Below, one piece after another: positions 2,399-21,232 of a stretch of DNA of 22,893 nucleotides (position 1 is its first letter; each line of letters opens with the position of its first letter). Below the pieces are notes generated by a model. That model searched no databases, was not told the DNA's origin, and saw only the letters and a list, made by a program, of their open reading frames with translations. The position numbers and the translations under genes were made by a program. The DNA is taken from the IMG/VR virus record IMGVR_UViG_3300042562_000233, positions 1-22,893 of that record; one strand, 5' to 3'. This stretch comes from a virus.

Positions 2399-4098
2399 GA
2401 ACAAGAGCAAATCGACTTAACAATGGTTATATTGGTGAATATACTGCTCACGATGATGTGAATGGAATGGTGAGTGCAAACAAGAAATATCTTGTAAATG
2501 AATATAGCATAGAATCTTTGGTTTGGGAAAGACCTACGCAGTGGCGTTCGGGTCCTGCTGTAAACATAGGTGATCAAAAAATTGTAATAACAAACGCGGT
2601 TTATGATACTGATAATAATTTCGCAGCCTTTACATGTACTGGAAACTTTGCAGTAGACTGGGGTGACGGAACCACAGGTGCATTTACATCTCTCAACACA
2701 GCATCTAAAAATTATGATAAAACAACATATGCTGGATTAACAAGTGATGTTTTTAGAGGGTATAAAACTTTAAATATTGTAATAACTCCACAAGCAGGAG
2801 CAACATTTAGCGGTCAATTAAATTTTGCACTAAAACACCCACAAAGCGGATTACAGAGTTATTATTCTAGCGGATACCTTGAAATTATAATGTCAGCACC
2901 AAATGCAACTGGTGGATTGGTAGTATCAGATACTACATTTAATAATAGATCTGCAGCGCGTCTCTTGGAACATTTTAGATGGATTGGAACTGCTAATTTA
3001 AGTGGTAGTGCGGTTGCAGCAGCATTTATTGGGTGCAATAATTTAAAAATAATTAGTGAGTTTCCTTCCACACGAAACTGCACAGATTTTCAATCTCTGT
3101 TTCATAGTTGTCACAATCTAGAATATATTCCACCATCTATATGTGAAACACAAAATGGTACTAATTTGGCATTTATGTTTTATCTATGTAGTAGACTTAA
3201 AAGAGTTCCTGGTACTTTAAATACTAGTAAGGCTATAACTCTGACACAGCTGTTTCAAGATTGTCAGAATTTAAAAAGAATTCCAAGATTAGATACATCA
3301 AAAGTTACTAGTACATCTTTAGCTGGATTATTTTCTGGTTGCAGAACATTAGAAGAAATACCCGGAGAAGTTAATGCCATATCAGCCACCAGTTTAGCTT
3401 CTTTATTCTTTGGATGTGATAATTTAAGATATTTGCCTGAGATTATAAACACTTCAAATATTACTAACTTTGCTTCTATGTTTTCTCAAACTAGAGCATT
3501 ACAAACTGTTCCATATTTCGATACAACAAAAGGTACAGATTTTAATAATATGTTTAATACATCTGGTATAAGAGAGTTTGATCCGCAATGGGGTAATACC
3601 TTTAACATGCCTAATGCCGTAAATACAAGTAATATGTTTAGATTTGATAGAACGTTAGAACGAGTTCCGAATACATTTAATACTGGTGCTACGCTCACAA
3701 CAGCAAATGCAATGTTTTATGAATGTTATGCTCTGACAAATTGTCCAAATATAAATTTAAGTGGAGCTGCAAATTTAACAGAATTATTTTATAATTGCAG
3801 AGCAATTAAAGAAATCCCAAATATAAATTTACCCACAAATACGGCTGGTACATATACAAATACATTCTTGCAAAATTGGAATTTGAGTCAATGTGGTATG
3901 AGTGGATTTACAGGAGCAAATGTTTCCTTTGCATCATGTTCTTTGGGAGCAACTGCATTAAATCAAATTTACACAAATCTTGGAGTTGTTGGAGCATCGG
4001 GAGCAAATGCACGAACAATTACCGTTTCTGGAAACTGGGGAACTGCTAACGACACGCCTTCAATAGCAACAACTAAAGGTTGGGCTGTATCAGGATAA
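2395..4098 (+). CDS. Receptor-binding adhesin candidate: PKD-like segment and BspA/DUF285-type leucine-rich repeats
   Basis: The start is the ATG at 2395: AGGAG at 2381-2385 lies nine bases upstream and the ATG overlaps the previous stop as ATGA; an upstream TTG is open but not needed. The product is 567 residues. Residues about 58-115 contain a WGDGT motif typical of PKD-like beta-sandwich domains. From about residue 207 to 490, units of the form 'F..C..L..IP.....T....L..LF' recur about ten times, the pattern of BspA/DUF285 leucine-rich repeats found on bacterial surface proteins. The C-terminus carries LNQIYTNL and a TPSIATTKGW motif also found at the end of the protein at 10072-10968. Its place behind a fibre gene suggests a virion adhesin that binds the host or a surface polymer. 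No signal peptide is seen. The receptor cannot be told from sequence. Confidence 0.8.
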   Translation: MRTRANRLNNGYIGEYTAHDDVNGMVSANKKYLVNEYSIESLVWERPTQWRSGPAVNIGDQKIVITNAVYDTDNNFAAFTCTGNFAVDWGDGTTGAFTSLNTASKNYDKTTYAGLTSDVFRGYKTLNIVITPQAGATFSGQLNFALKHPQSGLQSYYSSGYLEIIMSAPNATGGLVVSDTTFNNRSAARLLEHFRWIGTANLSGSAVAAAFIGCNNLKIISEFPSTRNCTDFQSLFHSCHNLEYIPPSICETQNGTNLAFMFYLCSRLKRVPGTLNTSKAITLTQLFQDCQNLKRIPRLDTSKVTSTSLAGLFSGCRTLEEIPGEVNAISATSLASLFFGCDNLRYLPEIINTSNITNFASMFSQTRALQTVPYFDTTKGTDFNNMFNTSGIREFDPQWGNTFNMPNAVNTSNMFRFDRTLERVPNTFNTGATLTTANAMFYECYALTNCPNINLSGAANLTELFYNCRAIKEIPNINLPTNTAGTYTNTFLQNWNLSQCGMSGFTGANVSFASCSLGATALNQIYTNLGVVGASGANARTITVSGNWGTANDTPSIATTKGWAVSG

Positions 4099-4103
4099 AC
4101 ACT

Positions 4104-4325
4104 ATGGATAGAGGACCAGGATTTTATAAACTAGACGAAACAGACTTACTCTGCGGACCAAATTATGTTTTAGCAGGAAGTTTTTCTTTATATAAAGAAG
4201 AAAAAGACACATACATATACCCAATAGGAGGTTGGTATTGGTTTGATACAGAAGCAGCAGCAAGAATATTTTTTGGATTGCCGGAATTGACTATAAATAC
4301 AGAAGAAGGAAACCCATATGCCTGA
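4104..4325 (+). CDS. Small protein of unknown function in the structural block
   Basis: This 73-residue protein starts at the ATG at 4104, five bases after the previous stop, with a weak GGA at 4093-4095. A TTG at 4080 is open in the same frame but would overlap the previous gene and has no better ribosome site. The protein is aromatic and acidic (GGWYWFDTEAAARIFFGLPEL) with no membrane segment or signal peptide. It overlaps the next gene by eight bases, so the two are probably translated together. I do not recognise a family; position suggests a minor virion or chaperone protein. Confidence 0.65.
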   Translation: MDRGPGFYKLDETDLLCGPNYVLAGSFSLYKEEKDTYIYPIGGWYWFDTEAAARIFFGLPELTINTEEGNPYA

Positions 4326-4638
4326 AACATATAAAAGTTTTGGTACAATTGTTGGAAATACTGCCGCAACAACAATATACAGTGGAGTTACTGGTACCGC
4401 TTTGGTGAATGCTATTACAATAGCAAATAATGATACAAATAGTATAAATTATGTTACTGTAGAATTATTAAAAGGAAGTACTGCTTATTCAATAATTACA
4501 CAAGCACAATTACCTAGTAGAACAAGTTTGCAAGTGTTAGATGCACCGCTTGCACTTGAGAGTGGAAACCAACTCAGATATACTGCTGGATATACCTTTT
4601 CTACTCATGTAATTGTTTCCGTTATGGAAATTACCTGA
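4318..4638 (+). CDS. Small beta-rich virion protein candidate
   Basis: The 106-residue product starts at ATG 4318, with GAAGGA at 4305-4310 seven bases upstream. It is rich in Thr, Ser, Asn and Ala with alternating hydrophobic residues and no charged clusters, as expected for a compact beta-sandwich. The pattern 'TALVNAITIANNDTNSINYV' (a domain with ligand or shell contacts spaced by short strands) resembles small structural proteins of marine myoviruses, but I cannot assign it to a named family. It closes the first transcription segment: the next gene has its own late-promoter-like box. Confidence 0.7.
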   Translation: MPETYKSFGTIVGNTAATTIYSGVTGTALVNAITIANNDTNSINYVTVELLKGSTAYSIITQAQLPSRTSLQVLDAPLALESGNQLRYTAGYTFSTHVIVSVMEIT

Positions 4639-4678
4639 CATTCTTTGGTGTTCTACTAAAATCCTTCATTTGTAATAT

Positions 4679-4689
4679 GATAAATATTA
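4679..4689 (+). promoter_or_regulatory. T4-late-like promoter box before the fibre gene at 4694
   Basis: GATAAATATTA matches the T4 late promoter box TATAAATA at seven of eight positions and shares ATAAATATTA with boxes at 6598-6607 and, on the minus strand, 13475-13484. Start of transcription about six bases after the box would fall around 4692, leaving almost no leader before ATG 4694, and no Shine-Dalgarno is present. Confidence 0.5.
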
Positions 4690-4693
4690 ACAC

Positions 4694-6076
4694 ATGGCAA
4701 TAGATTTTCCCACGTCACCAGCACTTAATGAGATTTATCCTTATGATGGTCGTTCATGGCGATGGAATGGCTATGCATGGGATATTTACAGTACTGTAAG
4801 TGGTGATGTTGTAACAAAACTTAATGGTTTAACTGGTGGCGTAACTCTTGCTGCTGGTTCAAATATTACTTTAACTCCATTTGGCAATACTATTACTATT
4901 GCATCTTTGGGTGGTGGTTCTACTGCATCTGTTTTTGATACTGATCTTATTGCTGCCTTTGGATCTGGAAAGTTTTTTGGTAAATATGTGCAAGGAGATG
5001 TGATTCCTGCAATTGGAAAAACTGCAGTAGAAGTAATTAAAGATGCTCTCGTTGCTGCTCTATCTCCAACAGTATCTTTGACAAGTTCAACTATCATACC
5101 ATTTAATCAAACTGCAATAAGCAATGTATTAAATTTTTCTTATGTTATTAACAGTCTTGGTGCAACAGCAAGTGGTGTGACTTTAGATTGGAGAAGAAAT
5201 TATACTGATGGATATACTGCTCTTTCTACAAATATAGGAATCACTGGTTATACACATACTTTAACAGACAGTGCGTTTAATTCTCAAGCATTCAATTATC
5301 GTTATCGTGTAACAGATAGTGTTGGTGCTACTGGTGAAGCAATTCTGAATATAACTCCAACTGCATATGTTGCACCAACACGAACAATTACAGTCATCGG
5401 AACAAATACTAGTAGTCCAGAAACATCAACGAGTAGAGAAAAAGGAAATGTTGAATCTACTATTAGTGCTCTAATAGAGAAAAATAGTCCAAATGTTGCT
5501 ATTACAAGTTGGCAACGACAAGTTCAAGAAAATGGAGGGGGATTTACTGGCATTGAAAGTGCAACTGGTATTACAGCAGATCCATCATCAATATCTACCG
5601 GATCAGTAAACCATTCAACTGCAAATACAGTTTCTTCTGCTGCATATCGTATAAAAGTTACAGACGCATATCAAGATTCAATTGCCAGTTCTGTTACCAC
5701 CGATTCCAGCACTATAAATTATTATAATTATATTTTCTACGGTGCAACTGCATCTGCACCAACTACTTCTGCCAATATTCGTTCTCTTCCTTCCAAGGCA
5801 TTGAATATAAGTATATCAAATCCTAGTAATCCATTTAATCTTGATACTGGATCAATATATAAAAACTTTACAGTTGCACTTCCATCGACATTGGGTATTA
5901 CTTCTGTTATTGATCTTGATGGACTCAATGCAAATATTACCGATCAATATATTTTGAATTCTGGGTTAACTGGAATTTTAGACTATGCTGGAATTACATC
6001 TTCATATAATGTCTATACGATGACGCAGGGAATAACTTATAGCACAAATCATAGACATTCAGTGACTAGAGCATAA
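4694..6076 (+). CDS. Virion fibre-type protein with Ig-like beta domains
   Basis: The 460-residue product begins MAIDFPTSPALNEIYPYDGRSWRWNGYAWDI when read in pieces: a short FP.SP...E.Y...G..W.WNG.AWD head segment seen at the N-terminus of many marine phage tail proteins. It is followed by a KLNGLTGGVTL linker (residues about 42-55) and two or more Thr/Ser-rich segments that look like Ig-like beta sandwiches (about residues 140-230 and 230-330). No collagen repeats or signal peptide. No Shine-Dalgarno lies before the ATG; the late-promoter-like box ends five bases upstream. The next gene begins one base after the stop. A tail or baseplate fibre role is inferred from composition and neighbours. 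Confidence 0.75.
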   Translation: MAIDFPTSPALNEIYPYDGRSWRWNGYAWDIYSTVSGDVVTKLNGLTGGVTLAAGSNITLTPFGNTITIASLGGGSTASVFDTDLIAAFGSGKFFGKYVQGDVIPAIGKTAVEVIKDALVAALSPTVSLTSSTIIPFNQTAISNVLNFSYVINSLGATASGVTLDWRRNYTDGYTALSTNIGITGYTHTLTDSAFNSQAFNYRYRVTDSVGATGEAILNITPTAYVAPTRTITVIGTNTSSPETSTSREKGNVESTISALIEKNSPNVAITSWQRQVQENGGGFTGIESATGITADPSSISTGSVNHSTANTVSSAAYRIKVTDAYQDSIASSVTTDSSTINYYNYIFYGATASAPTTSANIRSLPSKALNISISNPSNPFNLDTGSIYKNFTVALPSTLGITSVIDLDGLNANITDQYILNSGLTGILDYAGITSSYNVYTMTQGITYSTNHRHSVTRA

Positions 6077-10075: not shown

Positions 10076-10968
10076 TATCAGTTCCATCAATAAAACCAGT
10101 ACTCACTAAATCTCCATCAGCAGACTATTATGAAGGAACAATAGTACAAAGTTCGGTGACATGGAGAATAAGACTTTCCACTTCTACTGGGTTTTATAAA
10201 ATTGAATGGTGGGATGGAACTACTTCTACTGCCGCAAATGGATCTTTTGTTTCCAAAGCAGTAGTAGCCCCATACAATAACTCTACACCAAAACCATTCA
10301 AGGTTTATTCAATCGATAATACTACAAATCAAAGAAGAATAGGGTATATAACTCAAATATGGCATCACCGGAGTGGAACCTCAAGAAGTCAAACAAGCAC
10401 TTCAAATTTTCGTAACTGTCCAAGATTACAAAAATTGTATATGTTTTCCACTTTGGGAGTAGGACAAGAAATAAGACCATCAACATTAGATCTGTCTGGA
10501 TTAAAGGAACTCACAGATTTAAGAATTGGTGCTACTGACTCCGGTGCATATTCAGTCTCCAATGGTGGTACCAACAGTACATTAACTTCTGTAGATGTCT
10601 CTGGTTGTTCTTCTTTACAATATTGTTATGTATCCAAAAGCAGTGCGTTGACAAGTATTACCGGATTGAACTCTGCCGCAAATTCTTTGATAATTTTAGT
10701 GTTAAATTCTAATACGAGCTTATCTTCTCTTAGAATTCAAAATTGCACTTTTAATACTCCATCTACTTATACTTATGGTGGATACAACTACTTGTATTCT
10801 GGTGGAGCAGATATATCATACTGTGCATTTAATGGTGCTGCTCTAGATCAAATATATACGGATTTGGCAGCAGGCGATGGTTATCTACTTGTAAGTAACA
10901 ATACTGGAACCTCGACAGATAATCCCTCTATAGCAACCGCAAAAGGATATACCGTATTAGGTTCATAA
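10072..10968 (+). CDS. Leucine-rich-like adhesin, paralogous at its C-terminus to the protein at 2395
   Basis: The 298-residue product starts at the ATG of an ATGA overlap. Residues 1-95 form a beta-rich domain with W.I.......Y.I.WWDGTT, comparable in place to the WGDGT segment of the adhesin at 2395. Residues about 110-260 hold irregular leucine-rich units (LDLSGLKELTDLRIG, VDVSGCSSLQYCYV, LNSAANSLIILVLNSNTSL). The C-terminus has AALDQIYTDL and DNPSIATAKGYTV, which match ALNQIYTNL and DTPSIATTKGW at the end of the other adhesin. Together with the identical ATGA coupling to an upstream fibre gene, this suggests a receptor-binding subunit. The binding target is unknown. Confidence 0.78.
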   Translation: MISVPSIKPVLTKSPSADYYEGTIVQSSVTWRIRLSTSTGFYKIEWWDGTTSTAANGSFVSKAVVAPYNNSTPKPFKVYSIDNTTNQRRIGYITQIWHHRSGTSRSQTSTSNFRNCPRLQKLYMFSTLGVGQEIRPSTLDLSGLKELTDLRIGATDSGAYSVSNGGTNSTLTSVDVSGCSSLQYCYVSKSSALTSITGLNSAANSLIILVLNSNTSLSSLRIQNCTFNTPSTYTYGGYNYLYSGGADISYCAFNGAALDQIYTDLAAGDGYLLVSNNTGTSTDNPSIATAKGYTVLGS

Positions 10969-10969
10969 A

Positions 10970-11635
10970 ATGGCATATTACATCACTCCAAACTACAGCG
11001 TATCTCTTATACCAAAATCAGGGTGTTCTACTATAGCAAGACTTGTGTTAAAGTCTTTTTATCCAGACAAAGAAAATTTAATACAAACCGGAGCATACCC
11101 AGAAGGAAAAGGACCGGACAACACATTATGGCAAGGGTTTACTCCAAAAGAAAGATATCCATCAAAACCTGTTATATCTTTTATAAGAGAACCAATTGAA
11201 CGATTCTTGTCAGCAATGTCACAAGAAAATCTTATTGATGTTGATTTAACCATAGATTCAATAATAAATAGCACCATATTGCCACCACAAAATTTAAATG
11301 GAAAAAGAAAAGAAAGAGTGCTTTCCAAAAATCCTCATTTTAGTCTTCAGATTAAACAAGTTACACCAAATGCAAAACTTTACAAGTTTCCCGATCACCT
11401 AACAGAAGGATGTGTAGAAATAGGATTTGTTGGCGATTTGGTACAGATAAATTCAGCAAAAAGACCAAAACCACCTTTAACACAAAATCAAATAAATACA
11501 TTGAACGAAATATATGCAGAAGATATTATGCTTTATAATTCAATAGTATTGCCGGGAATTGTTACTGGACAAGTTTGGTCTCAATATTCTCTACCACCAG
11601 AACCAGTAGATGATGAAATATTGTCTGATTCTTGA
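10970..11635 (+). CDS. Sulfotransferase-family-like protein
   Basis: The 221-residue product starts at ATG 10970, right behind the adhesin stop. It carries both signatures of PAPS-dependent sulfotransferases: a 5'-phosphosulfate loop at residues 14-22 (IPKSGCSTI, with Lys16 in place) and a 3'-phosphate site at residues 70-82 (SFIREPIERFLSA, with Arg73 and Ser81). This is the pattern of the carbohydrate/membrane sulfotransferase groups, which lack long N-terminal arms when soluble. The protein is short against the usual 250-350 residues. No signal peptide or membrane segment is seen, so it acts in the cytoplasm. Such enzymes move sulfate from PAPS to a hydroxyl or amine of sugar, lipid or peptide. 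Its position at the end of the fibre block suggests a sulfated virion or host surface glycan; that is inference. Confidence 0.75.
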   Translation: MAYYITPNYSVSLIPKSGCSTIARLVLKSFYPDKENLIQTGAYPEGKGPDNTLWQGFTPKERYPSKPVISFIREPIERFLSAMSQENLIDVDLTIDSIINSTILPPQNLNGKRKERVLSKNPHFSLQIKQVTPNAKLYKFPDHLTEGCVEIGFVGDLVQINSAKRPKPPLTQNQINTLNEIYAEDIMLYNSIVLPGIVTGQVWSQYSLPPEPVDDEILSDS

Positions 11636-11659
11636 CAAGTATCTATATTATGATATAAT
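11632..11659 (+). promoter_or_regulatory. Sigma70-type promoter for dut, predicted leaderless
   Basis: TTGACA (11632-11637), a 16-base spacer, TATAAT (11654-11659), then six bases (actcac) and ATG 11666. The stop codon of the previous gene (TGA, 11633-11635) lies inside the -35 box. No Shine-Dalgarno is present; the mRNA should start at or next to the ATG. Confidence 0.8.
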
Positions 11660-11665
11660 ACTCAC

Positions 11666-12181
11666 ATGTTCCTAGACTACTTCAAAGTTTCTCCAAATAT
11701 TCCAGATCCAAACTTTCAGACCAAAATGGCTGCGTGCTTTGACCTTGCCGCATACATTCCACCGAATGAAAAAGTAAAAATTTATGATGGAAAAAAGGAA
11801 AATTTGTTTTTTCCAGACCATGATGGAGAAAAAGGTTCATACATTACTCTGATGCCTTCTGAAAGGGCTCTAGTTCGCACAGGCTTGACTTTTAACGTGC
11901 CCCAAGGATATTCTGTCCGAATACACCCTAGATCAGGAATGGCTCTTAAATACGGTCTTACGCTTGCAAATTGCGAAGGTGTAGTCGATGAAGATTACAC
12001 CTATGAGACCAAACTTATCATGATCAATACTAGCACAGATCCTGTTAGAATCTATGATAGAGACAGAATTGCACAAGGTGAACTAGTAAAGTACGAACAA
12101 CCAAGGCTCATGGAAATTTACACAGAACCAAGTCTCAAGTCAGACCGTATCGGTGGGTTCGGTAGTACTGGAGTCAGTTGA
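11666..12181 (+). CDS. dut: dUTP diphosphatase (dUTPase)
   Basis: The 171-residue protein hydrolyses dUTP to dUMP and diphosphate, keeping uracil out of new DNA and supplying dUMP to the ThyX encoded downstream. All five motifs of the trimeric dUTPase family are visible: I at 22-29 (AACFDLAA), II at 88-97 (PRSGMALKYG), III at 105-111 (GVVDEDY, catalytic Asp108), IV at 133-140 (DRIAQGEL), V at 161-169 (RIGGFGSTG). An insertion of about twenty residues (roughly 38-60) between motifs I and II makes it longer than the 150-residue norm. The ATG sits six bases after the -10 box with no Shine-Dalgarno, so expression is probably early and leaderless. The last 42 bases overlap the end of the convergent lipoprotein gene. 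Confidence 0.95.
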   Translation: MFLDYFKVSPNIPDPNFQTKMAACFDLAAYIPPNEKVKIYDGKKENLFFPDHDGEKGSYITLMPSERALVRTGLTFNVPQGYSVRIHPRSGMALKYGLTLANCEGVVDEDYTYETKLIMINTSTDPVRIYDRDRIAQGELVKYEQPRLMEIYTEPSLKSDRIGGFGSTGVS

Positions 12182-12409
12182 TTTCTTTTTAGTGAATTTA
12201 ATTGATTTAAATTCTTTCCATACCATCCAAAGTACAAATACGACAACTGGAAAATACCAGAATGCCCATTCAGATGCTTTGTCTGGAGTATTGAAAAAAG
12301 CATTTTCAGATACTGTGTGAATATGTTCACCATCCTTTGTCTTTAATGTGACAAATTCAGGACTCGTGCATGAGGCAAGAAAGAGAATGATTGGAAGTAA
12401 ATATTTCAT
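12140..12409 (-). CDS. Small lipoprotein with a C-terminal membrane segment (u-spanin-like)
   Basis: The 89-residue product begins MKYLLPIILFLASC, a signal peptide with lipobox LASC and acceptor Cys14. A strong membrane helix follows at about residues 48-64 (WAFWYFPVVVFVLWMVW), then a Lys/Ser/Thr-rich tail. A lipid anchor at one end and a membrane helix at the other is the topology of unimolecular spanins, which join outer and inner membranes in the last lysis step. The link between the two anchors is only about 33 residues, short for crossing the periplasm, which weakens the assignment. The start overlaps the holin-like gene as ATGA, with GGGAG seven bases upstream. The 3' end overlaps dut convergently by 42 bases. 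Confidence 0.7.
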   Translation of the reverse strand: MKYLLPIILFLASCTSPEFVTLKTKDGEHIHTVSENAFFNTPDKASEWAFWYFPVVVFVLWMVWKEFKSIKFTKKKSTDSSTTEPTDTV

Positions 12410-12837
12410 TTGTTGCTCCCTGCTGCTGAACCGAAGTAGAACCCAACAACGGCAAGTAGAACTTGACGATTTTCTTCAGCCAAGAAATATCCTGGAATTT
12501 CAATAAAGTATTTACGAGTTGTCGCTGGAATGAATCCAAATATAGCATCTGGTTGTTTTTGTGAAATTTCTACAAAGGTAGGAATACCAAAGAACGGTAA
12601 GACGAACGGAGCAGCCACAACTGCAAAGAGACATGAAAGTACAATAAAACGACGAACATTCTTACCAAGATCAATTGGTACTCTTTGGACAGCCTTATCT
12701 TGATTTTCAGTAGTTTGAGTATTTGCTTGGAGCATTTGCTGAAATAGTTCTTTTTGGTCTTGAGCCCGTTGAGCCCAGTACTTAAAAAGAAATCCAGTAG
12801 CAGTTCCACCGATTAATGATATAAGTTGTTCAGTCAT
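12406..12837 (-). CDS. Holin-like small membrane protein
   Basis: The 143-residue product has a weak hydrophobic N-terminal segment (residues 5-20), a charged helical region (21-62), and two clear membrane segments at about 63-84 and 124-140, the last ending VGFYFGSAAGSNK. The two- to three-helix layout and the FYFGS end recall the three-helix holins of gene transfer agents and alphaproteobacterial phages; this is a resemblance from memory, not a search. GAGGT lies five bases before the ATG, and the stop overlaps the next gene as ATGA. As a holin it would sit in the inner membrane and time lysis. An unrelated membrane protein remains possible. Confidence 0.62.
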   Translation of the reverse strand: MTEQLISLIGGTATGFLFKYWAQRAQDQKELFQQMLQANTQTTENQDKAVQRVPIDLGKNVRRFIVLSCLFAVVAAPFVLPFFGIPTFVEISQKQPDAIFGFIPATTRKYFIEIPGYFLAEENRQVLLAVVGFYFGSAAGSNK

Positions 12838-12845
12838 AATATACC

Positions 12846-13451
12846 TCAGTTCTTTTGATGTGAAAGTTGAATTTCAATCGATTCTTTAATGGCTTTAAAA
12901 TGTTTCATTATAATATCTTGTTCTTCGATTGCCGGTGTATAACCTTCGTCCCACTGAAGCAAAACAAATCCAACATTGGTTCCTTTATTTTTGATTGGAA
13001 GACAGGCATAATTCACAATACTTTCATCTTCGAAGAAACCTTTAACATAACTTTCTTGTAAAGCCCTTGTTGGATAAATCAAACTTTTATTATCAATTAC
13101 ATGAACCAAGAGAGGAATAAACATGGAACACAAACTTGCTTTAAGTTTTACAACTTGAGAAGTAAATCCTTTATGTGTAGATTCATGTGTTACAGAAAAT
13201 TTACGCATACTAATTCCATCCATAGTATAATCACCATTATGGAATTGTAAAATTGTTGCTCTAAGTGCCTTTGTTGTGATTCTTAATTCTGTTAACAATT
13301 CATGAATTTCTGTATGAATTGCAATAAAGTTATCAACTTTAGATCTATTTTGAATAAATTTTAAAACCCCTAAACCAATTCCCAGTCCACCTACAACCAT
13401 GATTGAAATAGACTCTAAAAACTTTGTATAATCAATCAGGGCTATTAACAT
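12846..13451 (-). CDS. Membrane-anchored GAF-like domain protein of unknown function
   Basis: The 201-residue product has one N-terminal membrane helix (about residues 14-34, SIMVVGGLGIGLGVLKF), a helical linker, then a domain from about 60 to 195. Its features (RATILQFHNGDYTMDG, FSVTHE, YACLPIKNKGTNVGFVLLQW) fit a GAF-like sensor fold: a central sheet with a ligand pocket, ending in a long helix. No catalytic motif such as a kinase or cyclase follows. GGAG (13459-13462 on the plus strand as CTCC) lies seven bases before the ATG. It is the first gene of the minus-strand island and is eight bases from the holin-like gene, so a role in sensing conditions and tuning lysis is possible, but this is inference. 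Confidence 0.65.
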   Translation of the reverse strand: MLIALIDYTKFLESISIMVVGGLGIGLGVLKFIQNRSKVDNFIAIHTEIHELLTELRITTKALRATILQFHNGDYTMDGISMRKFSVTHESTHKGFTSQVVKLKASLCSMFIPLLVHVIDNKSLIYPTRALQESYVKGFFEDESIVNYACLPIKNKGTNVGFVLLQWDEGYTPAIEEQDIIMKHFKAIKESIEIQLSHQKN

Positions 13452-13474
13452 AGGGGAACTCCATTGGGGTGCAT

Positions 13475-13485
13475 TAATATTTATA
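13475..13485 (-). promoter_or_regulatory. T4-type late promoter for the minus-strand island
   Basis: Read on the minus strand the sequence is TATAAATATTA: an exact match to the T4 late box TATAAATA (13485 to 13478) within the extended core ATAAATATTA. Transcription would start near 13472 and give a leader of about 20 bases that contains the GGAG for the first gene. Confidence 0.75.
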
Positions 13486-13488
13486 TTC

Positions 13489-13516
13489 TTGACACGTGCA
13501 TAATTGATGCTATACT
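13489..13516 (+). promoter_or_regulatory. Sigma70-type promoter, predicted leaderless, for the gene at 13523
   Basis: TTGACA (13489-13494), a 16-base spacer, TATACT (13511-13516), six bases (agttcc), then ATG 13523. Geometry is identical to the promoters of dut and gp41. It lies a few bases from the divergent late promoter, so early and late transcription face away from the same 75-base gap. Confidence 0.8.
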
Positions 13517-13522
13517 AGTTCC

Positions 13523-13864
13523 ATGACAAAAGATGAATTATTTCAGTTACATGAAGACATTTGCCGCCGAGCATTAGTAATAATGCGTCACAAATCAGCA
13601 GACTACTCATCCGGAACAGATCCCTTTGCTAACTTTAAGCGGGGAGAGATTCTTGGATTTGCAAGTGCTGAAGAGGGATTAATGTTGCGGGTAGTCGATA
13701 AAATCTCACGTATTTCCACCTTTCTAAAGAAGGGTGAATTAAAAGTGGGAAATGAGACCGTTCAAGACAGTATTCTTGATGTTGTTAATTATATGATTCT
13801 ACTTCAGGGATTGTTGGAAGACAAAGAACTTAAGGCACTGTTGGAACACAAAGAAACAAAATAA
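13523..13864 (+). CDS. MazG/DUF1599-like nucleotide-associated protein
   Basis: The 113-residue all-helical product has KSADYSSGTDPFANFKRGE (residues about 24-42), then RVVDKISRISTFL (56-68) and DSILDVVNYMILL (82-94). This 'K..DY...DPFANF ... R..DK..R ... D...D..NY' layout is that of the DUF1599/Nmad1 group, related to MazG-type NTP pyrophosphohydrolases whose acidic residues bind Mg-nucleotide. The substrate is not known; a nucleotide pool or base-modification role fits the neighbours dut, gp43 and thyX. No Shine-Dalgarno precedes the ATG, and it is likely leaderless. The stop TAA overlaps the polymerase ATG by one base (TAATG). Confidence 0.72.
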   Translation: MTKDELFQLHEDICRRALVIMRHKSADYSSGTDPFANFKRGEILGFASAEEGLMLRVVDKISRISTFLKKGELKVGNETVQDSILDVVNYMILLQGLLEDKELKALLEHKETK

Positions 13865-16371
13865 TGAAATTTTATACAGCATGTGCACTTAAGGGGAACA
13901 AGGTTCTTGTTCGTGGCTATAACAACGGTGTCCGTTTTACGGATACTGTCACATATAAGCCATCATTGTATATGCGTACAGATACTCCCAGCAAGTATAA
14001 GACTCTAACTGGTGTTAATGTTGGTCGTATTAAGTTTGAGAATTTGTATGAGTCTCGTGAATTTCTTGATCAATACAGAGAACTAGAAGATTGTCCAATT
14101 TATGGAAACACTGATTTTATCACTCAATATATCATGGAGACTTATCCGTCTGAGGTGGAATACGATCTTTCCAAGATCAAAGTAGCCTACTTGGACCTTG
14201 AATGTGAGACGGAAGGGGGGTTTCCCAATCTTGATGCGCCTAATGAACGCATCAACTTGGTGACGATTCGTATCTCTGGTGTCAATTATGTTATCACCAT
14301 GAAACCCCTCAACCTTCCGGATTGTAGAGTTGTTCTTGTTGCATCTGAGAAGGAATTGATCAAGAAGATCTTTGACATTCTTCGTCAATGTGATGCAGAC
14401 ATTCTGACTGGCTGGAACATCAAACTCTTTGATATGCCCTATATCATTGGTCGTGCCAAACTGTTCTTTGAAGAAAAGGAAATTCAAGCATGGATGCCCT
14501 TTGGCTTCATGAAGATGCGGATTACCAATATTGGTGGTAAAGACTATACTCTATATGAGTTTCCGGGATATACCATTCTAGATTACATGGATTTATATAA
14601 GAAATTTTCTGGAACCAACCAAGAAAGTTACGCCCTAAATAATATAGCAAAGGTAGAACTAGATGAACAAAAACTGGATTATACCGAATATGGTTCGTTG
14701 CGTGAGTTTTATACGCAAAACTTTCAAAAGTTTGCTGAGTACAATGTCCAAGATGTGGTCTTGGTTGAGCGACTTGAGGGTAAATTAAAGTTAATTGATC
14801 TTGCGGTTTCGATTGCCTATGAAGCCAAAATCACCTTTGATACCGTCTTCTTCGCTACACGTATTTGGGAAACCATTTGTTGTGACTATCTTGCCAAACA
14901 AAACATTGTTCCTCCACTAAAGACAAAGTATTCTAAAGACGAACAGTTCATTGGTGCGTATGTCAAGGATGTTATTCCCGGTCTATATAAAAATGTTGTG
15001 AGTTTTGATGCAACATCTCTATACCCATCTATTATCATTGGTTGGAACATTTCACCCGAGACTTGTATTGTAAAGAATTCATCCTTGAATGCAGATGACT
15101 TTTTGCGTAGTAGTCGTAAAGAAATTCCAGGTATGATTGGGGATGCTATTAGTCAAACTGCATGTTTGGCGTGTAATGGTTCAGTCTTCTCAAATACTGT
15201 CAAGGGATTTATTCCTACTCTGATTGAAATCACTTTCAACCAGCGTCAGGAAGCCAAGAAGAAAATGATCAAGTTGGAAAAGGAATACGAAGTATCGAAG
15301 GACAAGAAACTTATTCCATTAATTGCTGCGTTAAAGATTCGTCAGTCTGTTAAGAAGATTCTAGCAAACAGTTTGTATGGCTGTCTTGGTAATCCTGCAT
15401 TTACATATTCGTCTCCGGAACTCGCAACTGCGGTTACAGTTACGGGTCAGGTGATCATTCGATCTGCCGAAGAGCAGATGAATGCATACATCAACAGAGT
15501 CATGAAGAATGAAGATCCCAAGGATTATGTCATTGCCGTTGACACAGATTCCGTTTATCTAAATCTCGAAGACATTATTAATAAAGTTTCTACCAAGAGT
15601 GATATAGGTGACATCACAACCTTTATTGATAATATCTGTGAAAAGAATATTCAAAAGGAATTGACTGGGACGATGAAGGAGTTGACCACTAAACTTAATT
15701 GTCTCACGAACAAGATTCTATTCAAGCGTGAAGCAATTGCATCAAGTGGAATGTTTATTGCCAAGAAGCGATATGCGTTGCTGATGACAGATCTTGAAGG
15801 TGTTCGATTCAGCGAACCAAAGTTAAAGATCATGGGTCTTGAAACAGCACGAAGCAGTACTCCCGGTATTGTTCGTACTAAACTCAAAGACTGCATCATG
15901 ATAATCATGACCAAGACCCCCGAGGAGTTGCGTAAGTATGTCAATTTATTTTATGATGAATTTATGGAACTACCTATAGATGTTATCGCATCTCCTCGGG
16001 GTGTTAAGGGTATCTCTAAGTACACAGATGTCTCTGATATATACAAGAGTGGAACACCTATCGCTACTAAGGCAGCACTGTTACACAATGCATATTTAAA
16101 GAAGTTAAAACTTGATAAAGAAGTTGCACCGATTAAAGAAAATGACAAGATTCGATTTGTGTTTGTAAAAGTTCCAAATCCATATGGTATGGGTGGTCGT
16201 GATGCAGTTCTTGGGTTTATAAACAAAGCCCCAGCACAGTTTCAACTAGATAAATTTGTAGACCGCAAGAAACAATTTGAAAAAACTTTTAATGAACCAC
16301 TTGATAATATTTTGCAAGCAATCAAATGGTCAATTAGTGACAGGGTAACACTTGACTCGTTCTTTTCATGA
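13864..16371 (+). CDS. 43: DNA polymerase, family B, T4 gp43 type
   Basis: The 835-residue replicative polymerase copies the phage genome with 3'-5' proofreading. Exonuclease motifs: Exo I Asp111/Glu113 (YLDLE), Exo II Asn185-Asp190 (NIKLFD), Exo III Tyr293-Asp297 (YNVQD). Polymerase motifs: A at 382-390 (DATSLYPSI, catalytic Asp382), B at 497-506 (KKILANSLYG), C at 559-563 (VDTDS). All are intact, and no intein or split is seen. T4 gp43 is 898 residues, so this is slightly shorter. The C-terminus RVTLDSFFS looks like a sliding-clamp binding peptide, as at the gp43 end in T4. The gene is coupled to the previous one by TAATG; its last codons hold the -35 box of the next promoter. Confidence 0.97.
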   Translation: MKFYTACALKGNKVLVRGYNNGVRFTDTVTYKPSLYMRTDTPSKYKTLTGVNVGRIKFENLYESREFLDQYRELEDCPIYGNTDFITQYIMETYPSEVEYDLSKIKVAYLDLECETEGGFPNLDAPNERINLVTIRISGVNYVITMKPLNLPDCRVVLVASEKELIKKIFDILRQCDADILTGWNIKLFDMPYIIGRAKLFFEEKEIQAWMPFGFMKMRITNIGGKDYTLYEFPGYTILDYMDLYKKFSGTNQESYALNNIAKVELDEQKLDYTEYGSLREFYTQNFQKFAEYNVQDVVLVERLEGKLKLIDLAVSIAYEAKITFDTVFFATRIWETICCDYLAKQNIVPPLKTKYSKDEQFIGAYVKDVIPGLYKNVVSFDATSLYPSIIIGWNISPETCIVKNSSLNADDFLRSSRKEIPGMIGDAISQTACLACNGSVFSNTVKGFIPTLIEITFNQRQEAKKKMIKLEKEYEVSKDKKLIPLIAALKIRQSVKKILANSLYGCLGNPAFTYSSPELATAVTVTGQVIIRSAEEQMNAYINRVMKNEDPKDYVIAVDTDSVYLNLEDIINKVSTKSDIGDITTFIDNICEKNIQKELTGTMKELTTKLNCLTNKILFKREAIASSGMFIAKKRYALLMTDLEGVRFSEPKLKIMGLETARSSTPGIVRTKLKDCIMIIMTKTPEELRKYVNLFYDEFMELPIDVIASPRGVKGISKYTDVSDIYKSGTPIATKAALLHNAYLKKLKLDKEVAPIKENDKIRFVFVKVPNPYGMGGRDAVLGFINKAPAQFQLDKFVDRKKQFEKTFNEPLDNILQAIKWSISDRVTLDSFFS

Positions 16372-16379
16372 TGTATATT
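16352..16379 (+). promoter_or_regulatory. Sigma70-type promoter after the polymerase gene
   Basis: TTGACT (16352-16357), a 16-base spacer, TATATT (16374-16379). The -35 box lies in the codons for Leu-Asp-Ser near the polymerase C-terminus. Unlike the other three, the next ATG (16421) is 41 bases after the -10 box, giving an A-rich leader of about 36 bases. Confidence 0.6.
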
Positions 16380-16420
16380 AGTTGAAGCAAATAAATAAAA
16401 ATTTGAAAGAATATTAAGAA

Positions 16421-16720
16421 ATGGTAAAGAAATTTAAATCTAGATATGGGGATGAACGAATCCTCACCAAACGTAAAGACGGAAACTATAGTCTCGAAGG
16501 TCACACCTTATTTTCTAGGGGTGGCGATGGTTTATTTGATTTTGAAGGTGGTCCATGTATTATGGTTGGTACTAGACTACTTGACATTATCAATGACGTA
16601 GATGACGTAATCGTAGAATCAATTACTGTTGACGATACCATAGTTGAAGAAAACTATGCTCGTATTATTATTACAACAAAAAACTATAAGAAAGGAAAGA
16701 AGAAAAGTGACTTACTTTAA
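16421..16720 (+). CDS. Small protein of unknown function between gp43 and uvsX
   Basis: The 99-residue product starts at ATG 16421 with only an AAGAA-like purine run upstream. It begins with a basic segment (MVKKFKSRYGDERILTKRKD), has a Gly-rich middle (LFSRGGDGLFDFEGGPCIMVG), an acidic stretch (INDVDDVIVESITVDDTIVEE), and a Lys-rich end. There is no membrane segment. It is likely an early gene expressed from the promoter at 16352. No family is recognised. Confidence 0.65.
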   Translation: MVKKFKSRYGDERILTKRKDGNYSLEGHTLFSRGGDGLFDFEGGPCIMVGTRLLDIINDVDDVIVESITVDDTIVEENYARIIITTKNYKKGKKKSDLL

Positions 16721-16892
16721 AAAGATTTGGAATATGGTTAAGAAGAATTTTCGTATCGATCATCAAATGGATCGTATGATTATTATTTTTATGGGCATGG
16801 CTGCAGCGTTTTGTTTTATGACATGCGGATTTTGGTTTGGACTACCACTGCTTGTAGTCGCTTCAATTAACCCTTATTGGTTTGATGAATAA
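16707..16892 (+). CDS. Small membrane protein, likely GTG start
   Basis: The 61-residue product begins VTYFKKIWNMVKKNF, with GTG at 16707 after AAGGAAAGAAG (AAGGA 16692-16696), and overlaps the previous gene by 14 bases. The ATG at 16734 would give 52 residues but has a poor ribosome site; upstream starts lie deep in the previous gene. After a basic amphipathic N-terminus comes a long hydrophobic run (MIIIFMGMAAAFCFMTCGFW, then FGLPLLVVASI), enough for one or two membrane helices. Function unknown; a small inner-membrane protein acting on the host early in infection is possible. Confidence 0.55.
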   Translation: MTYFKKIWNMVKKNFRIDHQMDRMIIIFMGMAAAFCFMTCGFWFGLPLLVVASINPYWFDE

Positions 16893-16894
16893 TT

Positions 16895-17272
16895 ATGAAA
16901 AAGAATATTAAAGTTACTGTTACAAAAACTATCCCGTGGCAATACGAATATGATATTTTAAAAGTTCCATATCATGAATTTGTAGATTCTATTCAAGACA
17001 TGCCATTCACGATGTTGTTGCACGAATATCGTTCACATTGTGAATACAGAGGTCACAAATTAAAAAATCACCCAAACTTTGGTGCTGAAAATAATAGTGA
17101 TCTATATAATAGAATCCATACAATTGAAACTTTACTCAAAGAACATTATCATAGGCTCAATGATTCTTTAGAAGCATGTCAATATTGGGAAAACGAAAAT
17201 TGGAAAGTCTCACAAAAGAAGAAAGAAGAGAATGTCAAAGTACCTAACAAATCTACTAAGCAAACTAAATAA
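16895..17272 (+). CDS. Small protein of unknown function before uvsX
   Basis: The 125-residue product starts two bases after the previous stop without a clear Shine-Dalgarno. It has a mixed N-terminal part (VTVTKTIPWQYEYDILKVPY), a His/Glu-rich helical middle (LLKEHYHRLNDSLEACQYW), and a Lys-rich tail (SQKKKEENVKVPNKSTKQTK). The tail overlaps the uvsX start by 41 bases. No domain is recognised. Its place suggests it belongs to the early replication operon. Confidence 0.6.
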   Translation: MKKNIKVTVTKTIPWQYEYDILKVPYHEFVDSIQDMPFTMLLHEYRSHCEYRGHKLKNHPNFGAENNSDLYNRIHTIETLLKEHYHRLNDSLEACQYWENENWKVSQKKKEENVKVPNKSTKQTK

Positions 17273-18254
17273 TCCTGATGCAGCCATCGTAGCCGATGGT
17301 ATTGATGGTGCTGATGTTACAGGCTTCATTGATACTGGATCATATGTACTGAATGCTTTGCTTTCAGGCTCTATATATGGTGGGCTACCTGCAAATAAGA
17401 TCTCTTGTCTTGCAGGAGATCCTGCTACTGGAAAGACTTTCTATGCAATTGGTATCGCTACACAATTTCTCAAAGACCACAAAGACGGTGTTGTCATCTA
17501 CTTTGACACGGAGCAAGCAATCACTTCAGACATGTTTGCACAACGGGGAATCGATTCCAAAAGAATTGCAGTTGTTCCTGTTGCAACAATCGAAGAGTTC
17601 AAGAATCAGGCTCTCAAGATCGTCAATGACGTACTTGAAACACCTGAAGAAGACCGCAAGCCAATCTTTATGGTTCTTGATTCTTTGGGAATGTTATCGA
17701 CAAACAAAGAGATGACAGATTCAGCAGATGGTAAAGATGTGCGTGATATGACAAAGGCACAACTTACCAAGGCTACATTCCGTGTTCTTACATTGAAACT
17801 CGGTAAGGCAAAGATACCACTTCTTCTTACAAACCATACATACCAAGTTATTGGTTCGTATGTTCCTACTAAGGATCTTGGTGGTGGTACAGGTATCAAG
17901 TATGCGGCTAGCAATATCATCATGCTGTCAAAGAGTAAAGATAAGACTGATGAAGGTATTGTTGGTAACTTTATTAAATGCACCAATTACAAGAATCGTT
18001 TTGTCAAAGAAAACATGCACGTTCAGACACGACTTAACTATACTTCTGGGTTAAGCAGATATTATGGCTTGACAGACCTAGCAATTGAGTATAATATATT
18101 CAAGAAGGTTTCAACACGAGTAGAACTCCCAGATGGTACAAAAGCATTTGAGAAAAATATAGATGAAGATCCTGAAAAATATTTTACAAAAGATATTCTT
18201 GACAAGTTGGATGTGGAAATTCAAAAAGGATTCAAGTATGGGCAAGGCAGTTGA
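17232..18254 (+). CDS. uvsX: UvsX, RecA-like recombinase
   Basis: The 340-residue protein is the phage strand-exchange recombinase. It coats single-stranded DNA, drives homologous pairing, and starts recombination-dependent replication. A RecA-type ATPase core is visible: Walker A at 62-69 (GDPATGKT), FDTEQ at 91-95 (catalytic Glu94), Walker B at 146-150 (FMVLD), and the Gly-rich loop DLGGGTGIKYAAS near residues 215-229. Its length is slightly less than T4 UvsX (391 residues). ATG 17232 follows an AAGAAGAAAGAAGAG purine run inside the previous gene's tail. Its end overlaps the next gene by 17 bases. Confidence 0.93.
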   Translation: MSKYLTNLLSKLNNPDAAIVADGIDGADVTGFIDTGSYVLNALLSGSIYGGLPANKISCLAGDPATGKTFYAIGIATQFLKDHKDGVVIYFDTEQAITSDMFAQRGIDSKRIAVVPVATIEEFKNQALKIVNDVLETPEEDRKPIFMVLDSLGMLSTNKEMTDSADGKDVRDMTKAQLTKATFRVLTLKLGKAKIPLLLTNHTYQVIGSYVPTKDLGGGTGIKYAASNIIMLSKSKDKTDEGIVGNFIKCTNYKNRFVKENMHVQTRLNYTSGLSRYYGLTDLAIEYNIFKKVSTRVELPDGTKAFEKNIDEDPEKYFTKDILDKLDVEIQKGFKYGQGS

Positions 18255-18564
18255 ATATAAATTTATTCCCGAAGCATCAGTAGACAGTACACAGACATGT
18301 CCGATTCAAATTACATCAGGGCAATTTGCTGGTATTGTTTATAGGTATGGTAAAATTGATTTTAAAGAAGATGGTAATGATGGATTAAATGTTACCATGG
18401 AAATTGAAATGATTAAATTCCCTGAAGGGTTTGATCAAGCCGATAAAGATTTCACACAAACTGCTGGTGAAATATTTGTAAAGATCATAGAGTCACAAGT
18501 TGAAAGTGATGACGCTAAAGATCTTGAAGCAGATGTTCATGAAGATCATCTTGACAACGCCTAA
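18238..18564 (+). CDS. Acidic protein of unknown function between uvsX and gp41
   Basis: The start is ATG 18238: AAGGA at 18226-18230 is seven bases upstream, while an in-frame start further upstream would run far into uvsX. The 108-residue product opens MGKAVEYKFIPEASVDS, has a beta-rich middle (IQITSGQFAGIVYRYGKIDF) and an acidic end (ESDDAKDLEADVHEDHLDNA). The family is not recognised. Its place between uvsX and gp41 suggests a replication accessory role, which is inference only. The promoter of gp41 lies in its last codons. Confidence 0.7.
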   Translation: MGKAVEYKFIPEASVDSTQTCPIQITSGQFAGIVYRYGKIDFKEDGNDGLNVTMEIEMIKFPEGFDQADKDFTQTAGEIFVKIIESQVESDDAKDLEADVHEDHLDNA

Positions 18565-18578
18565 CTCAGTGATATAAT
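18551..18578 (+). promoter_or_regulatory. Sigma70-type promoter for gp41, predicted leaderless
   Basis: TTGACA (18551-18556), a 16-base spacer, TATAAT (18573-18578), six bases (aaaacc), ATG 18585. The -35 box is within the Leu-Asp-Asn codons at the end of the previous gene. No Shine-Dalgarno. Confidence 0.8.
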
Positions 18579-18584
18579 AAAACC

Positions 18585-20003
18585 ATGGAAACAGTTATTC
18601 TAAAGAACTTAGTCCTCAATGAGGACTTTGCTCGTAAGGTTGTCCCGTTCCTTCAAGAAGAATACTTTCAAGACAAGGCTGAACGAACAGTCTTTAATAT
18701 TGTAAGTAAGTTTCTCCTCAAGTACAATAACATTCCTACCAAGGATGCTGTACTCATTTCACTCGGAGATGACAAGACTCTTGGAGACAGTGAATTCAAG
18801 AAGTGTGTTGCCATATCTGATGAGATGTATAAGGAAGGTGAGAAGTCTGATACTGAGTGGCTCGTAGAACATACTGAAAAGTTCTGCAAAGAGAAAGCCA
18901 TTTATAATGGTATCATGGCATCCATCGGGATCATTGAAGGTAAAGATAAGGAGCAGACTCAGAATGCAATTCCTGAGATCATGTCTAAGGCTCTATCTGT
19001 ATCCTTTGATACTCGTGTAGGACACGACTTCTTTGAAGATGTTGATGAGCGATATGAGTATTATCATCGTGTCGAAGAGCGTGTACCATTTGATCTTGAG
19101 ATGTTCAATCTCATTACTGGTGGTGGCGTTCGTAAGAAGACTCTCAACGTAGTGATGGCAGCATCCGGTGTTGGTAAGAGTGCATTCTTGTGTCATCATG
19201 CTGCTGCATGTCTTACACAGAATTTGAATGTGTTATATATTACACTTGAAATGTCTGAAGAAGAAATTGCTAAACGTATTGATGCCAATCTTTTAGATAC
19301 AGATATTCATGTTCTAGAAAAGATGCCTCTTGCTATGTATGAGAACAAGGTAAACAATCTTAAGAAGACATGTCATGGTAAACTTATTATTAAGGAATAC
19401 CCTACTGCTGCTGCTAACGTTACTCACTTCCGTAATCTAATGGAAGAACTGAAGATCAAGAAGAAGTTCAAGCCTGACATTATTATTGTTGATTATCTAA
19501 ACATCTGCTCATGTGCAAGATTCAAGATGGGCAACGGTATGAATAGTTACACTTATGTCAAGGGTATTGCAGAAGAACTACGTGGTCTTGCCAAGCAGTT
19601 CAATGTACCACTATGGTCTGCTACTCAGGTAAACCGTGAAGGTGCAAAGAGTAGTGACATGGAGATGACAGATACATCTGAAAGTTTTGGTCTACCACAA
19701 ACTACAGACTTCTTCATTGCACTCATTGAGACAGAAGAGTTAGCACAGAACGGTCAACTCATGGTGAAGCAGTTAAAGAACCGTGGTAATGATACAACTA
19801 AGAATCGTAAATTTCTTGTTGGTGTAAACAAATCCAAGATGAAGTTCTATGATGTAGAAAATTCAAATAACAATCTTGTCAATGCCAACAATACAAATGA
19901 AGAAAGTTTTGGATCAGGTTCTGGTCCACTAGTATTTTCAGATAGTTTTGGTATTAAAAAGAATAAGGCAGTAAACTGGGTTTTTGAAGACGCACCAAAA
20001 TGA
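18585..20003 (+). CDS. 41: Replicative DNA helicase, T4 gp41 (DnaB-like)
   Basis: The 472-residue protein forms the hexameric helicase that unwinds DNA ahead of gp43 and works with the gp61 primase encoded next. Residues about 1-130 are a helical N-terminal domain. The RecA-like core has Walker A at 192-199 (AASGVGKS), catalytic Glu222 in TLEMSEEE, Walker B at 299-303 (IIIVD), and ATQVNREG (about 347-354). The C-terminal 60 residues are Asn/Ser-rich and may be a flexible primase contact. The start METVILKNLVLNEDFARKV aligns in style with the T4 gp41 start, which supports the leaderless ATG. It ends in an ATGA overlap with the primase gene. Confidence 0.94.
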   Translation: METVILKNLVLNEDFARKVVPFLQEEYFQDKAERTVFNIVSKFLLKYNNIPTKDAVLISLGDDKTLGDSEFKKCVAISDEMYKEGEKSDTEWLVEHTEKFCKEKAIYNGIMASIGIIEGKDKEQTQNAIPEIMSKALSVSFDTRVGHDFFEDVDERYEYYHRVEERVPFDLEMFNLITGGGVRKKTLNVVMAASGVGKSAFLCHHAAACLTQNLNVLYITLEMSEEEIAKRIDANLLDTDIHVLEKMPLAMYENKVNNLKKTCHGKLIIKEYPTAAANVTHFRNLMEELKIKKKFKPDIIIVDYLNICSCARFKMGNGMNSYTYVKGIAEELRGLAKQFNVPLWSATQVNREGAKSSDMEMTDTSESFGLPQTTDFFIALIETEELAQNGQLMVKQLKNRGNDTTKNRKFLVGVNKSKMKFYDVENSNNNLVNANNTNEESFGSGSGPLVFSDSFGIKKNKAVNWVFEDAPK

Positions 20004-20992
20004 GTATATATATTGATAAGAAATATGTGAATATGTTGTCTGGCTCACTTGAGAAGTTCAAGTGGAAGAAAGAGAACCTTGCTACGTGTCGTTGTTTTAA
20101 GTGTGGAGACTCACTAAAGAACAAGACAAAGACGAGAGGATTCTTTTTTGAAAACAAAGGAAATTATGTTTATAAATGTCACAACTGCGGTATTGCTTGT
20201 AGTCTATATTCTGTACTTGAAAGTATCAGCCCATCACTCTGCAAAGAATATGCATTTGAAAACTTCAAAGACAAAAATCCAGAACCGTTGGTTACAACGA
20301 AGACAGAAAAGAAACAGCCAGTGTTCAGTGATCTCGGAACAAGGCTTGATTTACTCAATGCAGATCATCCGGCGGTAAAATATGTTCAATCTAGAGAAAT
20401 TCCAAAAGAAAAGTATTGCAATTTTTATTACTGCAGTGATTTTAGTAGAATCATGTCTTCTTTCGATAGAGAAGGATCTAAGGAAGGTAGGCTCGTCATA
20501 CCGTTCTATGACGAAAGCGGCAACCTTATTGGCGTTCAAGGCAGGATCATCGAAGAAAAAGCGCAAGAGAAAGCGATAAGGTACATCACCTTAAAGCGTG
20601 AAGGCGAAGAGCGTCTATGGTACAACATAGATAAAGTAGACGCAAGAGATACTGTGTATGTGACTGAAGGTCCGATTGATTCCATGTTTATTCCAAATGG
20701 AATTTCAATGCAGGGTGCAGGTTGGTTAGAAGATCTTCCTAAGAAGATCTCAAAATCAAAGGTTGTGTTCATATTTGATAATGAACCAAGAAATGTAGAA
20801 ATTGTTCACTTGATTGGCAAGTACATTGAGGCTGGAAGAAATGTAGTAATCTGGCCAAATGAAATTGATAAAAAAGATATTAATGATATGGTGATGGCAT
20901 TCGGTGAATCTATGACCATGAAACTAATAATCAACAATGTTTATTCTGGACTTAAAGCAAAAGTAAAGTATACTTACTGGAAGAAGGTTTAA
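20000..20992 (+). CDS. 61: DNA primase, T4 gp61 type
   Basis: The 330-residue enzyme makes RNA primers for lagging-strand synthesis with gp41. The N-terminus has a zinc-binding site, CFKC at 32-35 and CHNC at 60-63. The TOPRIM core includes Glu223 in VTEGPID and Asp260 in FIFDNEP, the residues that bind metal. Length matches T4 gp61 (342 residues). The ATG overlaps the gp41 stop as ATGA, so both are made together. An AAGAAGG just before its stop serves the next gene. Confidence 0.92.
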   Translation: MSIYIDKKYVNMLSGSLEKFKWKKENLATCRCFKCGDSLKNKTKTRGFFFENKGNYVYKCHNCGIACSLYSVLESISPSLCKEYAFENFKDKNPEPLVTTKTEKKQPVFSDLGTRLDLLNADHPAVKYVQSREIPKEKYCNFYYCSDFSRIMSSFDREGSKEGRLVIPFYDESGNLIGVQGRIIEEKAQEKAIRYITLKREGEERLWYNIDKVDARDTVYVTEGPIDSMFIPNGISMQGAGWLEDLPKKISKSKVVFIFDNEPRNVEIVHLIGKYIEAGRNVVIWPNEIDKKDINDMVMAFGESMTMKLIINNVYSGLKAKVKYTYWKKV

Positions 20993-21232
20993 ATGGAAGA
21001 TGAAAACGAGAAACTATCTGAAGAAGATATTTTAAAGGCTAGTGAAGCGTACATCACCTTTGTTCAAAGATTTGGTGAGTATGTAAAAGAAATGGACCCC
21101 GAACTATGGGGACGTGCTCGAGAATATGCAGCAGATTTTACAAAGATTGATGGCGTAAGAGTTGAACTTGTAGATATAGATGAGGATGAAGAAAATGACA
21201 CAGACGATAACAATGTTTCCGGAGCAGACTAA
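20993..21232 (+). CDS. Small acidic protein of unknown function
   Basis: The 79-residue product begins directly after the primase stop (TAAATG), with AAGAAGG at 20981-20987. It is strongly acidic: MEDENEKLSEEDILKASEAY at the start and an Asp/Glu run (DIDEDEENDTDD) near the end, with a helical middle (FVQRFGEYVKEMDPELWGRA). It overlaps the start of thyX by 38 bases. A DNA-mimic or protein-binding role is possible given the charge, but no evidence beyond composition exists. Confidence 0.65.
   Translation: MEDENEKLSEEDILKASEAYITFVQRFGEYVKEMDPELWGRAREYAADFTKIDGVRVELVDIDEDEENDTDDNNVSGAD

Follow-up and report, generated by a model that had tools for sequence, protein, structure and literature searches.

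The window analyzed in this work is the whole 22,893-base IMG/VR record IMGVR_UViG_3300042562_000233, a fragment of an uncultured T4-like phage with homologs of the T4 core proteins gp41, family B DNA polymerase and UvsX (Gp23 was found in three relatives). We studied the promoters of three of its genes, those for dUTPase (dut), a MazG-like protein and the replicative helicase gp41, which share a layout that would yield mRNAs beginning at the start codon. In all three, the -35 and -10 boxes of a sigma70-type promoter are separated by exactly 16 bases and exactly six further bases lead to the ATG, precisely at the positions given by a preliminary description of this DNA; as that description had also stated, no Shine-Dalgarno (SD) sequence lies upstream of these three starts (Table 1).

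Promoters and genes of the window

Two of the promoters match the consensus at 12/12 positions and one at 11/12, all carry a TGn extended -10 element, and together they are three of the top four sigma70-like sites between positions 10900 and 22893. The pattern TTGACA-N14..19-TATAAT was seen three times in the window against 0.08 expected; the third exact pair, at 18069, lies inside uvsX without a start codon and is probably spurious. The promoters head three transcription units, namely (i) dut, with minus-strand genes downstream, (ii) the MazG-like gene and the DNA polymerase gene, and (iii) gp41 and the primase gene. Among the other starts, those of the polymerase, the primase and the gene at 20993 show overlap or coupling, and those of nrdJ and the genes at 6625 and 8693 have an SD sequence. 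The earlier statement that the remaining genes of the block use one of these two devices holds broadly, uvsX and the gene at 16421 having only a weak purine-rich stretch. Folding of the first 50 nt of RNA gave nothing for dut and the MazG-like gene, and a hairpin at the gp41 start (z -2.5) to which we attach no interpretation.

Table 1. Promoters, genes and late-type boxes in the window, its relatives and phage HTVC008M
Feature	Position	Strand	Remarks
dut promoter	11632..11665	+	TTGACA 11632-11637; N16 with TGn extended -10; TATAAT 11654-11659; 6 nt ACTCAC
dut, dUTPase	11666..12181	+	predicted leaderless; Pfam dUTPase 9.4e-17
MazG-like gene promoter	13489..13522	+	TTGACA 13489-13494; N16 ending TGC; TATACT 13511-13516; AGTTCC
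MazG-like/DUF1599 gene	13523..13864	+	PF07659 8.6e-4, below its cut-off; phrog_1485 3.7e-12
DNA polymerase	13864-16371		second cistron after MazG-like gene, coupled by TAATG
gp41 promoter	18551..18584	+	TTGACA 18551-18556; N16 ending TGA; TATAAT 18573-18578; AAAACC
gp41, DnaB-type replicative helicase	18585..20003	+	predicted leaderless; DnaB_C 8.8e-22
Primase	20000-20992		overlaps end of gp41
Late-type box GATAAATA	4679..4686	+	7 nt ahead of ATG 4694; near-leaderless late gene
T4-type late box TATAAATA	13478..13485	-	back-to-back with -35 of MazG-like gene; placed to drive gene 12846-13451
Back-to-back late TATAAATA/early TTGACA pairs	window 13478-13494; G001 8081/8131; G005 28166/28215, 31136/31190; G006 24420/24475, 27059/27108		2-11 bp apart; often both genes leaderless (predicted)
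TTGACA-N17-TACAAT-N5-C-ATG arrays	L234 (G006:1-20000) about 370-6000; similar G002 81.7-91 kb, G003 26-31.7 kb, G005 48-57 kb		GC-rich island (~57%)
HTVC008M (KC465899) late boxes	6280, 7562, 19456, 31132, 49760, 75559, 142360	+	ATG 5 nt downstream; predicted leaderless
HTVC008M (KC465899) late boxes	18916, 16007	-	ATG 5 nt downstream; predicted leaderless

A six-base gap between promoter and start codon across the clade

We scanned seven contigs totaling 658 kb, comprising the window (G000) and six relatives (G001-G006). An exact search of seven related contigs for TTGACA-N15..18-TATAAT-N3..12-ATG gave six matches, all with a spacer of 16 and a gap of 6. Plain consensus matching, before any matrix training, placed 28 sites at gap 6, seven at gap 8 and no more than four at any other gap. 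With a two-box matrix, the numbers of ATG codons at gaps 2 to 12 were 3, 5, 6, 2, 103, 14, 9, 2, 8, 6 and 5; the control on which we rely is the set of all other gaps under the same matrix, with a background of about six sites each. This enrichment check, proposed in the preliminary description, proved decisive, as gaps 5, 7 and 8 held only 2, 14 and 9 sites. An open reading frame (ORF) of at least 30 codons is opened by 98 of 104 gap-6 sites. The same sigma70-type promoter scan revealed no gap-6 peak in T4, S-RSM4, Melnitz or HTVC008M. Among the first 120 stretches of an IMG/VR scan covering gaps 3-9, TTGACA..TATAAT before ORFs peaks at gaps 6 and 7, mostly with spacer 17; phage promoters of this leaderless sigma70 type are thus likely to be widespread among uncultured viruses. 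As judged from these sequences, it is the lock on spacer 16, together with double (early and late) use, that distinguishes the clade from the phages compared here.

Since a -10 box spans positions -12 to -7, a gap of 6 would place the transcription start (+1) on the A of the ATG. A pyrimidine (C or T) precedes the ATG at 93 of 100 gap-6 sites, compared with 58% ahead of other genes (p ~1e-13), which conforms to the usual pyrimidine/purine (YR) initiator and supports this placement independently of the spacing arithmetic. Leaderless genes of the bacterial sigma70 type are marked by a -10 box whose end lies 6-7 nt ahead of the start codon and by the lack of an SD sequence. The gap is exactly 6 at the three window sites and at 103 clade sites, and SD cores are depleted (9/98 gap-6 genes vs 213/594 in the comparison set). 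Gap-6 start codons comprise 103 ATG, 6 GTG, 3 TTG and 3 CTG, and this lack of enrichment of non-ATG codons agrees with reports that leaderless translation in Escherichia coli and Caulobacter depends on AUG (PMC9031893). In Lactococcus, no leaders between 4 and 14 nt were found (PMC10986495), a finding that the shortage of gaps just above 6-8 in the clade would fit.

Orthologous upstream regions were gathered without selecting for the motif and counted non-redundantly. The exact 16/6 layout is present in 20 of 21 upstream regions of dut and 19 of 22 of gp41, and in none of those of DNA polymerase (n=16), uvsX (n=21) or primase (n=14). The boxes carry 1.4-1.6 bits of information and the spacer about 0.4, and among gp41 relatives the preceding stop codon shifts while the promoter holds its position. 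By this comparison dut and gp41 are held to a gap of exactly 6, which the MazG-like gene is not. The layout shared by the three genes, as first described, is thus real and conserved in two of them; it is not confined to the three, and the MazG-like orthologs vary. The MazG-like gene ends in an imperfect 27-bp tandem duplication (13801-13855, 3' end) that is apparently absent from the aligned close relatives.

That such a pattern might be a chance product of searching AT-rich DNA draws on the frequency of sites with at least 9/12 matches, which are about as common as in shuffled sequences. This does not hold for near-perfect sites, and the gap-6 peak, the ortholog conservation and the flat profiles of the comparison phages exclude chance; we regard this explanation as refuted, with a negligible probability remaining.

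The gap-6 promoters fall into two sets. Spacer-16 sites (47 with an ORF, including the three of the window, which holds this set only) have TATAAT or TATACT, are scattered, and lie in DNA of 39% local GC. The 50 spacer-17 sites have mainly TACAAT, a local GC of 57%, and C at -1 in 44 of 46 non-redundant cases; they occur in tandem gene arrays, adjoining CobS-/CobT-like genes, in which most genes are small and many have a promoter to themselves. Many of the array ORFs, and many small ORFs behind gap-6 sites, were overlooked by the simple gene caller. Our guess is that the two sets are expressed at different times. One array (L234) contains four exact copies of GGTGGAATAATTTATT (1510-1525, 2404-2419, 3177-3192 and 4885-4900), every one of which follows an additional TTGACA..TACAAT promoter and lies a short way ahead of a leaderless one; no copy was found in any other locus examined.

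Late promoters and relationships of the clade

T4 early promoters are of the sigma70 type, and its late TATAAATA promoters use gp55, gp33 and gp45. The clade has the same promoter elements and gene sets as T4 (gp41, polymerase, uvsX, tail tube), but T4 and S-RSM4, whose promoters stand mostly 20-39 nt upstream, have leaders of mostly about 20-40 nt, whereas in the clade the start codon would lie at +1. In the late class, (N)ATAAATA boxes peak at gap 5 before the ATG of 49 ORFs of at least 60 codons, with T or C at -1 in 47 of 49. Scrambled motifs gave no such peak, apart from scrambles that match part of this very box out of register. Because the T4 late box sits at -13 to -6 (PMC1524935), a gap of 5 would again make the A of the ATG the +1 base. 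The motif (T)ATAAATA-N5-ATG precedes the tail tube and neck/head-tail adaptor homologs of the relatives, as for T4-type late promoters. Late boxes at gap 5 are absent from T4 and S-RSM4, and are shared with Pelagibacter phage HTVC008M and methylophage Melnitz (9 and 3 sites). These two phages, unlike the clade, have no sigma70-type gap-6 peak, and both encode bS21, which the clade does not.

The preliminary description took the leaderless start to be a dedicated early-class signal that favors early messages on ribosomes, perhaps by 70S initiation. The strong enrichment at sigma70-type promoters and the early appearance of the tandem leaderless arrays speak for this idea. However, the late class contradicts it at the level of sequence: the gp55-type promoters of the clade keep just as strictly to one gap, 5, and are predicted to be leaderless too, so that leaderless starts are not an early-class mark; moreover, some sigma70-type promoters of the arrays have leaders with an SD sequence. 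We therefore consider the early-class signal very improbable.

Early and late promoters are also physically paired. A late box lies on the opposite strand within 40 nt of 11 of the 47 spacer-16 sites (about 0.4 expected), and in 8 of these 11 pairs the late gene itself stands at gap 5. In the window, TATTTATA adjoins the TTGACA of the MazG-like gene, as it does upstream of many MazG-like orthologs; the late partner of this pair, minus-strand gene 12846-13451, has a leader with GGAG. Such back-to-back pairs, which sit where only about 50 bp separate the genes, would also be expected if genome compaction alone, with no special translational role, had produced the layout, as would the overlap of the gp41 -35 box with the upstream ORF and the nine gap-5 late boxes of HTVC008M. 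Yet compaction predicts a scatter of short gaps where 6 (early) and 5 (late) dominate, and array genes keep gap 6 despite having room upstream. Concerning why the layout exists, and compatible with leaderless transcription as such, compaction alone is a possible but not the favored account.

Regarding its relationships, gp41 of the window phage is 55% identical to g41 of cyanophage S-RSM4, with Methylophilales and Pelagibacter phages nearly as close, and its family B polymerase and UvsX are 41% and 55% identical, respectively, to cyanophage homologs. By these comparisons no cultured phage is a near relative. Close relatives, with 84-99% identity in gp41, turned up in IMG/VR only; no relatives of gp41 or ThyX were found in GTDB genome contigs, and no near match to the early region of a relative among the phage records searched. 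The cyanophage genes psbA/psbD and the actinophage gene WhiB had no match in G001-G006, whose contigs are incomplete. The habitat is presumably fresh water, judging by the IMG sample numbers. Several relatives carry tmRNA genes of the permuted (two-piece) form, whose tags are ANIKAAPMRMAA or ANQLAMAA, plus several tRNAs (L216 2244-2643, L220 12251-12626, L230 7543-7942, L235 7830-8229). A probable tail fibre gene of the window encodes, at 62-982, collagen-like Gly-X-Y repeats built from a 36-bp unit (8.1 copies, 99% match).

Probable leaderless initiation in a T4-like lineage

The geometry of the promoters, their conservation, the YR initiator, the restriction to ATG, the SD depletion and the contrast with T4 and S-RSM4, all visible in the DNA itself, support the proposal that the mRNAs begin at the ATG, and also selection on the layout. 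We consider it highly probable that transcription from these host sigma70-type early promoters begins with the A of the ATG, so that the mRNAs have no leader, and that the lineage uses leaderless starts widely. The promoter would set RNA polymerase on this A, the first gene of each unit (dut; the MazG-like gene, then polymerase; gp41, then primase) would be leaderless, and downstream genes would be reached via stop/start overlap or an SD sequence. Lineage-wide, leaderless starts would serve replication genes (spacer 16), small-gene arrays (spacer 17) and many late genes (gp55-type), and ribosomes would need to initiate at an AUG on the very 5' end, without SD pairing. The start sites, the translation of such messages, their timing and any advantage are what we infer from this arrangement.

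Several points weigh against this reading. The scoring matrix was trained on the clade gap-6 sites, which raises sensitivity, though it was used equally at all gaps; the contigs are incomplete, genes were called by a simple procedure, and the window and G001, being close relatives, are not independent. MazG-like orthologs keep a spacer of mostly 16, but their gap ranges from 6 to 11. Read-through from upstream genes could also yield leadered mRNAs, especially for gp41, whose TTGACA overlaps the end of the upstream ORF and whose ATG lies 20 nt past the preceding stop. Translation might then come mainly from read-through or coupled upstream transcripts, with the promoters real and their spacing incidental, and a further sigma70-like site at 13403, upstream of the MazG-like gene, fits this scheme. 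Since many genes of the arrays are single units under a promoter of their own and the 16/6 layout persists while the upstream stop shifts between relatives, we find it very improbable.

Leaderless translation is usually treated as rare in T4-type phages and most proteobacteria. The cI mRNA of phage lambda, the classic leaderless phage message, is that of a single gene and not a genome-wide layout. A survey of bacterial genomes that cites the lambda case places the Pribnow box of leaderless genes about 12 bp before the start codon and reports low values for alpha-, beta- and gammaproteobacteria, with 4-7% in the few genomes showing any (PMC3160421). The clade resembles these genes in that the -10 box puts +1 at the start codon without an SD sequence, and differs in being viral, with both early and late promoters involved. 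Thermus phage phiYS40 has leaderless middle and late transcripts, with IF2 reported up and IF3 down (PMC3594737). There, an entire temporal class lacks leaders; in the clade, large classes have the layout. However, phiYS40 infects a thermophile and the genes are middle and late, whereas the clade is T4-like, early and late, and predicted from sequence only. The spacing signature has thus been described before in bacteria, and phages with whole classes of leaderless messages are known as well. In the open-access literature we found classes of the phiYS40 type, but no description of a T4-type lineage leaderless in both classes.

A bolder version of leaderless use would have the lineage move most promoter-proximal genes of both classes to leaderless starts and use an early gene to alter the ribosomes or initiation factors of the host in favor of leaderless messages, with the spacer-16 and spacer-17 sets separately timed; we rate it as unlikely. 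A phage-encoded ribosome-tuning factor (bS21 or IF3) received no support, neither gene being found in the clade.

In practice, the layout may aid annotation by flagging likely real start codons in viral contigs, including those of small ORFs. That sigma70-type and gp55-type promoters both appear to converge on the start codon suggests that two transcription systems were selected in parallel for one mRNA end, and the lineage would be a natural setting in which to ask under what conditions leaderless initiation is of benefit.

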